From Methanococcoides burtonii DSM 6242 (GTDB taxonomy: Archaea > Halobacteriota > Methanosarcinia > Methanosarcinales > Methanosarcinaceae), in the NCBI RefSeq assembly GCF_000013725.1, contig NC_007955.1, positions 2,449,579-2,513,578 on the forward strand: a stretch of 64,000 nucleotides of DNA, in the 5' to 3' direction. The notes below the pieces were generated by a model. The model had not been told where the DNA came from and made no database searches. It worked only from the letters and a program-made list of their open reading frames with translations. Positions 26,006 through 28,367 of the stretch are shown piece by piece. Each line of letters begins with the position of its first letter. Position 1 is the first letter of the stretch. The position numbers were made by a program, and so were the translations under genes.

Positions 26006-27126
26006 TTACCATATGGACAGGGTGATATCAACGTATCCTTTATTGATCTTATTATAGATGGATTCTATCTTTTCGTCCCGGAGTTGTCTAATCTTATTGA
26101 TATCATTGGTAGTTGCCATTTGGGATACTGTATCATTTATTTCCTCTGACATGCTGTTTTTCAGATAGTTCGCAATATTCTTTTGGTTTGCTCGGATCAT
26201 ATCTTGTTCTGTAATTGTTATTGTGTTGTTGAATTCAAAAGGGTACGCTGTATGGGGTATCATCTGTGCTGATGACAGTGCGGCAGCATCGATAGTTTTG
26301 TTGAAACCATCATAATATGTGCCGAATTTAGTTGTGTTCGAGGAGTTGATATGTGTCGTGAGGGTCGTGTCGTTAATTGTACCCAGTAAGTAGCTTTTTG
26401 ATGGTCTGTTATTTGTTGGCAGTGTCACCCTTGAACTTTGTTTTACTGCATCTATTTGCGGCTTGATGCCGACCGAGATCGAGCTTTTGAGTGGATATCC
26501 CTCAACTGGCTCCCACGTTGTATGAAGTTGGTAGCTATATCTTCCTGCTATGCATTTGTCTAGGTATGTATCGATTGCAATACGAGTCTGTTCTTTGTGA
26601 GATATGGCTATTGGATCGACCGTTTGTATGGTGCTGCTATTGTCGATCGATAACGTTAGGATAAGATCTTCTGCTATTATTTCTGCAAATGTGCGGTGAT
26701 TATGCTGCTTATAATATGGTTTGGCAGATGATCCCACTATTAGTTTATCTAGCAGACTACTCGTTCCATTGGTGCTGGAATGTTCTATAATGACTTCCTG
26801 TCTGGATGTAGTAATTGTTGGCGTTGGATGGCCAAGGGGGTGTTGTCGGGTGATGTTCCCATATGTATGTTCACGTCATCCGGGATATCGATGTCTACAT
26901 ATATTGTAGATCCTGTGCCGCGGAAATATATCTGTTCTGAGTTATGCACGATCTTGCTGATCTCTATGAGTGCGCTATCTTCATTCGCTTTTTCTTTCAA
27001 GTCGGCCATTGCAGTGATTGCAAGGGCCATTATCAGCAAGACCAGAATAGCGGTTATTGCAAATCGAAGGGGCAGGGAATCGTCCGCCCTCTCATGTTCT
27101 TTTAGTGATATTTTTGTCGGCAACAT
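26006..27126 (-). pseudogene. Membrane-anchored secreted protein broken by two frameshifts
   Basis: The N-terminal part (from 27126) has a basic leader and one hydrophobic helix (LRFAITAILVLLIMALAITA), then an extracellular-looking region ending DIDIPDDVNIHMGTSPDN. At the run of five C (26836-26840) the sensible reading moves one frame, giving WPSNANNYYIQTG. Near 26795-26803 it moves again to EVIIEHSSTNGTSSLLDKL, which continues without a break to 26006. The three pieces join into one protein of about 370 residues. The C-terminal 243 residues form an open frame but have no independent ribosome site. The leader resembles archaeal pilin-like or exported proteins; function unknown. Confidence 0.6.
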
Positions 27127-27131
27127 TATTT

Positions 27132-28367
27132 TTAGTTGTTTTTGATGAATTCGATAGCTTCATCTAGTGGTAGTTGTGATTGGTCACCGGTTTCCATGTT
27201 CTTTACGGTTAGCTTGCCGGACTCGACCTCTTTCTATCCTACTATGACTGCGTAATCTGCTTCAATGTTGTTGGCATGGGATAGTTGTGTTTTGAAGTTA
27301 CGCTGCATGATATCTAGATATACGGTTAGTTCTTTTCGCAGGCTTGTTGTGACCTGGATGGCATCGATACGCGTTTCATCGGTGGATATTACAACTACGC
27401 TCTTCTGTTTTTCAGGCATTATTTCGCACACTTCCATTATACGGTCGAATCCAAGTCCGAATCCGGTAGATGGTACATCTCCGCCGCCGAATAATGAGAT
27501 CAATTGATATGAACCTCCTCCGCAGACCTGATTTTGTGCGCCAAGTCCTTCTGCATATATTTCGAAAACCATTCCGGTGTAGTAGTCAAGGCCTCTTGCT
27601 ATGCCTAGGTTGATAGAATAATCGATCTCGTATGCGTTGAGGAATGTCAGGAGCTGCTCAAATTTGTCTATTTCTTCGATGTCTCCTAATATTTCTCTTG
27701 CTTTTGTTATTGCATCGGTGCCTGTGATGCATATCAGCTCAAGTAGATTTCTTCTAAGCTCTACCGGGGCGTTTATTTCTTCAAAGTATTCTTCGAGACC
27801 GGAGTCGTCCTTTTTGTCCACAAGGCGCATTATTTTGCTTTGTTGCTCTGGTTCGAGCTCTCTGAGTATATGGCGGATTATTCCTAAGTGACCTACGTGA
27901 AGGTCGCCTTTGATGCCTGCTGCGTTGAGCATGGTGGTTGCAAGGGCAATTATCTCAGCATCTGCATCAGCGCGGTTGCTACCGATAACTTCGACACCGA
28001 ACTGCCAAAATTCTCGGAACCTTCCTTTTTGTGGTCTTTCATAACGGAAGCAATTCTCGAAATAGAATAGCTTGAGTGGTTTTGGGGTCGCCTGCATTTC
28101 GTTGACGTACATTCTCATTACCGGTGCGGTAAGTTCAGGGCGTAATGCCATGTTCCTGTTGCCCTTGTCGTTGAAATTGTAGAGTTCACCGATAACACCT
28201 TCTCCTGATTTGAGGGTGAATAGCTCCAGATTCTCAAAGGTGGGGGTGATAACTTCCTTATAGTCCCATTTGTTGACCACATTTCTCATTATGTTCTCGA
28301 TGTTTCTTCTGCGAGCGGTCTCTTCTGGAAGGAAGTCCCTTGTCCCTCTTGGTTTGCTGACTTTCAT
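27132..28367 (-). CDS. hisS: Histidyl-tRNA synthetase with in-frame UAG (pyrrolysine candidate)
   Basis: A class II synthetase, complete as 411 residues only if the UAG at 27234-27236 (codon 378) is read through. Motif 1 ([10 protein letters not shown]), motif 2 ([23 protein letters not shown]), the histidine motif [18 protein letters not shown] and motif 3 ([14 protein letters not shown]) are intact. After DYAVIVG-UAG the same frame continues [20 protein letters not shown] and ends IEFIKNN-TAA at 27132. This restores the usual C-terminal anticodon-binding domain. Methanosarcinaceae, including Methanococcoides, use UAG for pyrrolysine. Stopping at UAG would remove 33 residues from an essential enzyme. 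Confidence 0.9.

Follow-up and report, generated by a model that had tools for sequence, protein, structure and literature searches.

An in-frame UAG codon in the only hisS gene of Methanococcoides burtonii is very probably read as pyrrolysine

Does the histidine--tRNA ligase of Methanococcoides burtonii DSM 6242 end at the TAG that interrupts its reading frame, or is that codon translated? We analyzed a window of 64,000 nucleotides (NC_007955.1, positions 2,449,579 to 2,513,578), in which hisS occupies positions 27132..28367 on the minus strand, 411 codons if TAG is counted as sense. From an ATG at 28367 the frame runs through codons 1 to 377 (27237..28367, minus strand), reaches a TAG, codon 378, at 27236-27234, continues in frame for 33 sense codons (27135..27233), and closes at TAA (27132..27134). 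An earlier note, made from the sequence alone, had described a TAG at codon 378 followed without a shift by 33 further codons and a TAA, and its coordinates and counts were exact. As a full-length match to the hisS equivalog NCBIfam TIGR00442, whose cut-off is 287 bits, the frame scores 404 bits. The genome is a single contig of 2,575,032 bases, 99.9% complete, and carries one hisS, so that a second copy is ruled out. An open tail of this length is common, since in the window 28% of TAG triplets precede 33 or more codons free of TAA and TGA; we therefore set the length aside as evidence and used sequence conservation instead. Directly after hisS lies a short gene (26785-27126, minus strand) for a membrane-anchored product with a pilin-like N-terminus; it matches M. 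alaskense to about position 26840, then changes frame in a stretch of C's and stops prematurely, through either real decay or a sequence error.

We screened 112 genomes of Methanosarcinaceae for hisS and obtained a match in 108; a second collection gives names for the sisters M. seepicolus, M. alaskense, and M. vulcani. Among the 108, the M. burtonii genome alone has an in-frame TAG within hisS; there is none in the other 107. Over the whole 411-residue frame the identity to the four nearest sister genomes is 92 to 93%, and these four, as well as M. vulcani, use TAA as their stop codon at the same place. At codon 378 the four nearest sisters have AAG, encoding lysine, the other Methanococcoides genomes have AAA or AAG, and more distant relatives have lysine or glutamate codons; residue 378 varies among the 108 homologues, being mostly Glu, Lys, or Asp. 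A single A-to-T change from AAG, replacing lysine with pyrrolysine, therefore accounts for the TAG. The earlier note had called for a comparison with relatives, and had supposed a single change from GAG, CAG, or AAG; the supposition is borne out, with AAG singled out by the nearest sisters. Three irregular hits among the relatives (G046, G085, and G101) were examined as candidate truncations and explained by undetermined bases, a TAA at residue 410, and a draft-contig frameshift. Alignment A1 shows KNMETGDQ as invariant, but this was left out of the evidence because the sequences had been retrieved partly with that motif as a search pattern.

Decay of the codons downstream of the TAG, which the earlier note had named as part of a ground for rejecting read-through, was sought by comparison with M. 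seepicolus and was not found. The 33-codon tail differs from that of M. seepicolus by 16 synonymous and 4 nonsynonymous changes, at 21 synonymous and 78 nonsynonymous sites; so few nonsynonymous changes (4/20) would arise from unconstrained, random substitution with a P of about 4 x 10^-8. We then placed the changes on branches using M. vulcani as the outgroup. The M. burtonii branch carries 6 synonymous changes and 1 nonsynonymous change (1/7; P of about 6 x 10^-4), and the deficit persists when the changes not resolved to a branch are added (3/14 nonsynonymous; P of about 9 x 10^-6). Part of the divergence of the tail may be older than the TAG; the branch counts, read from sequence divergence, indicate that the tail has not decayed and say nothing on the age of the TAG. 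The tail has a codon score of 0.153, equal to that of real genes (long ORFs average 0.135). By these comparisons, the codons downstream of the TAG are still selected as protein.

The same 33 codons supply the last two strands and the helices of the anticodon-binding domain. The Pfam domain HGTP_anticodon spans residues 324 to 410 of the read-through protein (55 bits), while a Pfam search of the 377-residue form detects the catalytic core but not HGTP_anticodon, in agreement with the proposal in the earlier note that the continuation is the normal end of this domain. An AlphaFold2 model, built with lysine in place of pyrrolysine, has a mean pLDDT of 91, and the predicted fold matches known HisRS structures, e.g., 1wu7. 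In the model, a strand of the anticodon-binding domain leads into a short helix that begins at residue 378; a stop at this residue removes the helix 378-383, the strands 386-390 and 396-399, and the helix 401-410. The 377-residue product lacks the end of the domain and is probably inactive and degraded.

The capacity to translate UAG is present in the genome. A tRNA-Pyl gene with the anticodon CTA (CUA) lies at 2190676-2190747 (G000:C1) and is followed by pylS, pylB, pylC, and pylD, each of which exceeds its NCBIfam cut-off; with these the pylTSBCD set that was to be checked is complete. TAG usage was sampled in 464 kb, made up of the window and 20 stretches of 20 kb, for ORFs of at least 200 residues: 10 of 290 (3.4%) terminate at TAG, against 19% expected from triplet frequencies. 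The same protein clearly continues past a TAG in mttB, in an ADP-dependent glucokinase-like gene, in a histidine kinase, and in hisS; the mttB gene (L051 18078-19595) encodes a known pyrrolysine enzyme. To judge from these frames, TAG is rare in the genome and is a sense codon in several genes. A few genes in the sample do end at TAG, pylB among them (L032:8250-9362, minus strand), with its TAG two bases before the start of pylC. The 42-codon in-frame extension of pylB overlaps pylC and has a noncoding score, so UAG probably terminates there, and it is treated as a stop in the literature (PMC2933860); UAG is thus not plainly sense everywhere in this genome.

Two other frames in the sample are of separate interest. 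The ADP-dependent glucokinase-like gene (L044:4304-5659, minus strand; G000:C1:1424304-1425659) has its in-frame TAG as codon 386, upstream of the GLGD motif; in three sisters, 82 to 84% identical, the frame is open, with glutamate there or at an adjacent position. An uncharacterized ORF (L037:10794-11693, plus strand) consists of 174 codons, a TAG, and then 125 in-frame codons with a gene-like score.

Given the full UAG-reading machinery and a tail that is still selected, we conclude that the essential HisRS of M. burtonii very probably carries pyrrolysine at residue 378. We regard it as highly likely that UAG is decoded as pyrrolysine in competition with the release factor to give full-length HisRS, and that recent, near-neutral drift gave rise to the codon. 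In the proposed sequence of events, codon 378 would have changed from AAG to TAG in the M. burtonii lineage; tRNA-Pyl(CUA) charged with pyrrolysine would compete with the release factor at the UAG; and the resulting 411-residue HisRS with Pyl378 would carry out the histidine charging of the cell. We infer the residue at 378, the efficiency of read-through, and the fate of the short form, and expect some 377-residue product alongside. Pyrrolysine is a derivative of lysine. Since position 378 is also variable, the change should be tolerated and function kept. The restriction of the codon to a single species speaks for drift rather than for a conserved regulatory device.

We also considered insertion dependent on a PYLIS element, as proposed for mtmB; there is no notable stem-loop directly after the hisS UAG (100 nucleotides from the UAG, z = -1.14), and this candidate was rejected for want of a stable one. 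Competition of Pyl-tRNA with the release factor, with no obligatory mRNA element, is favored in the literature (PMC9499178), and read-through of hisS would not need a special mRNA signal. Several points count against read-through by drift. An amber codon introduced in M. acetivorans gave an apparent read-through of 20 to 30% (PMC2933860), and for an enzyme that is essential such a level would be costly; pylB still ends at TAG; some of the tail divergence may be older than the TAG; and the M. burtonii base rests on one genome of the species.

This last point bears most directly on the reading in which the true codon is AAG and the TAG is a sequencing or assembly error, with nothing recoded. We have seen a single assembly of the species, the sisters do have AAG, and the region has its oddities, in that the neighboring gene looks frameshifted relative to M. 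alaskense. The genome is, however, a finished single contig, and a substitution error is unlikely to have hit exactly the one stop that can be read here, given the other in-frame TAGs in the genome; we consider an error very unlikely. Termination at the TAG, with a 377-residue HisRS that suffices and a tail that is a recent relic, seems to us less probable still: UAG can stop translation in pyrrolysine-using archaea, as the end of pylB illustrates (PMC2933860), but no anticodon-binding domain can be detected in the short form, none of the 108 hisS genes of the family is convincingly truncated at this place, and nonsynonymous changes are in deficit in the tail.

The least probable of the readings, in our estimate, makes the TAG a regulatory device that tunes HisRS output to pyrrolysine, and hence to the supply of methylamine. 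Read-through depends on the pyrrolysine supply by its very mechanism, and the partial reading of the introduced amber codon in M. acetivorans (PMC2933860) would suit such tuning. Sisters would be expected to share a device under selection, yet the codon is found in none of them, and the sequence after the TAG has no notable RNA structure (z = -1.1).

The proposed translation of the hisS TAG as pyrrolysine has its closest precedent in Thg1, the tRNA-His guanylyltransferase of M. acetivorans, in which an amber codon present in a single species is read as pyrrolysine although activity does not require it (Heinemann et al. 2009, cited in PMC2933860, PMC3639795, and PMC8211752). As in Thg1, the TAG of hisS is found in one species and is replaced by a sense codon in relatives; neither enzyme is a methyltransferase, the pyrrolysine is noncatalytic, and both act on tRNA-His. 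A neutral gain of an amber codon of this kind is further matched in hisS by pyl genes in the host, a tolerant position, and a selected downstream frame. The pyrrolysine of Thg1 was proven at the protein level, however, whereas that of HisRS is predicted from the gene; HisRS, unlike Thg1, should be essential, and every histidine codon depends on its action. Resembling Thg1, and being one of several such TAGs in the genome, the hisS TAG is less isolated than the earlier note held.

The methylamine methyltransferases MtmB, MtbB, and MttB likewise have a TAG read as pyrrolysine by tRNA-Pyl and PylRS, but there the residue is conserved and catalytic, whereas in HisRS it would occupy a variable position in one species. 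A 2025 paper reportedly describes an archaeal genetic code in which all TAG codons are read as pyrrolysine. Such genome-wide reading would cover the hisS codon, although pylB here has a TAG at its natural end; the list of pyrrolysine proteins in that paper may already include hisS. The main text of two published screens that covered this species (PMC1242214 and PMC3639795) makes no mention of a histidyl-tRNA synthetase.

If HisRS does require pyrrolysine, the pyl genes could not be lost here, even on substrates for which no methylamine methyltransferase is needed, a concrete step toward fixing an optional 22nd amino acid in a genetic code. A tentative extension, which we think somewhat doubtful, is that the species relies on the PylRS system to charge tRNA-His and hence to grow: one essential aminoacyl-tRNA synthetase would have no active form without another, and the pyl genes would have become essential on every substrate.

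A TAG of another kind is found in histidine kinases. The M. burtonii gene (L051:5302-6924, plus strand; G000:C1:2425302-2426924) and its counterparts in the sister genomes (L152-L170) share a TAG that always falls in the same column of the HATPase domain, within NSLKFTPENGCI-TAG-IN; it is present in every one of the 11 Methanococcoides genomes, at 20 sites. In the other 101 genomes of the family the pattern has no match, and a reversed control pattern gave none; with a stricter pattern, TAG is present in 19 of the 22 sites that have the motif. Read as a stop, it would remove most of the ATP-binding domain. The column is a candidate conserved pyrrolysine, possibly with a functional or pyrrolysine-sensing role. 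PMC3639795 touches on a cluster of histidine kinases with read-through in three other methanogens, which may or may not involve this column. Because the TAG is kept across species and paralogues, unlike that of hisS, the histidine kinases are the better candidate for a functional pyrrolysine outside the methyltransferases, and their TAG column may be a stronger observation than the TAG of hisS.
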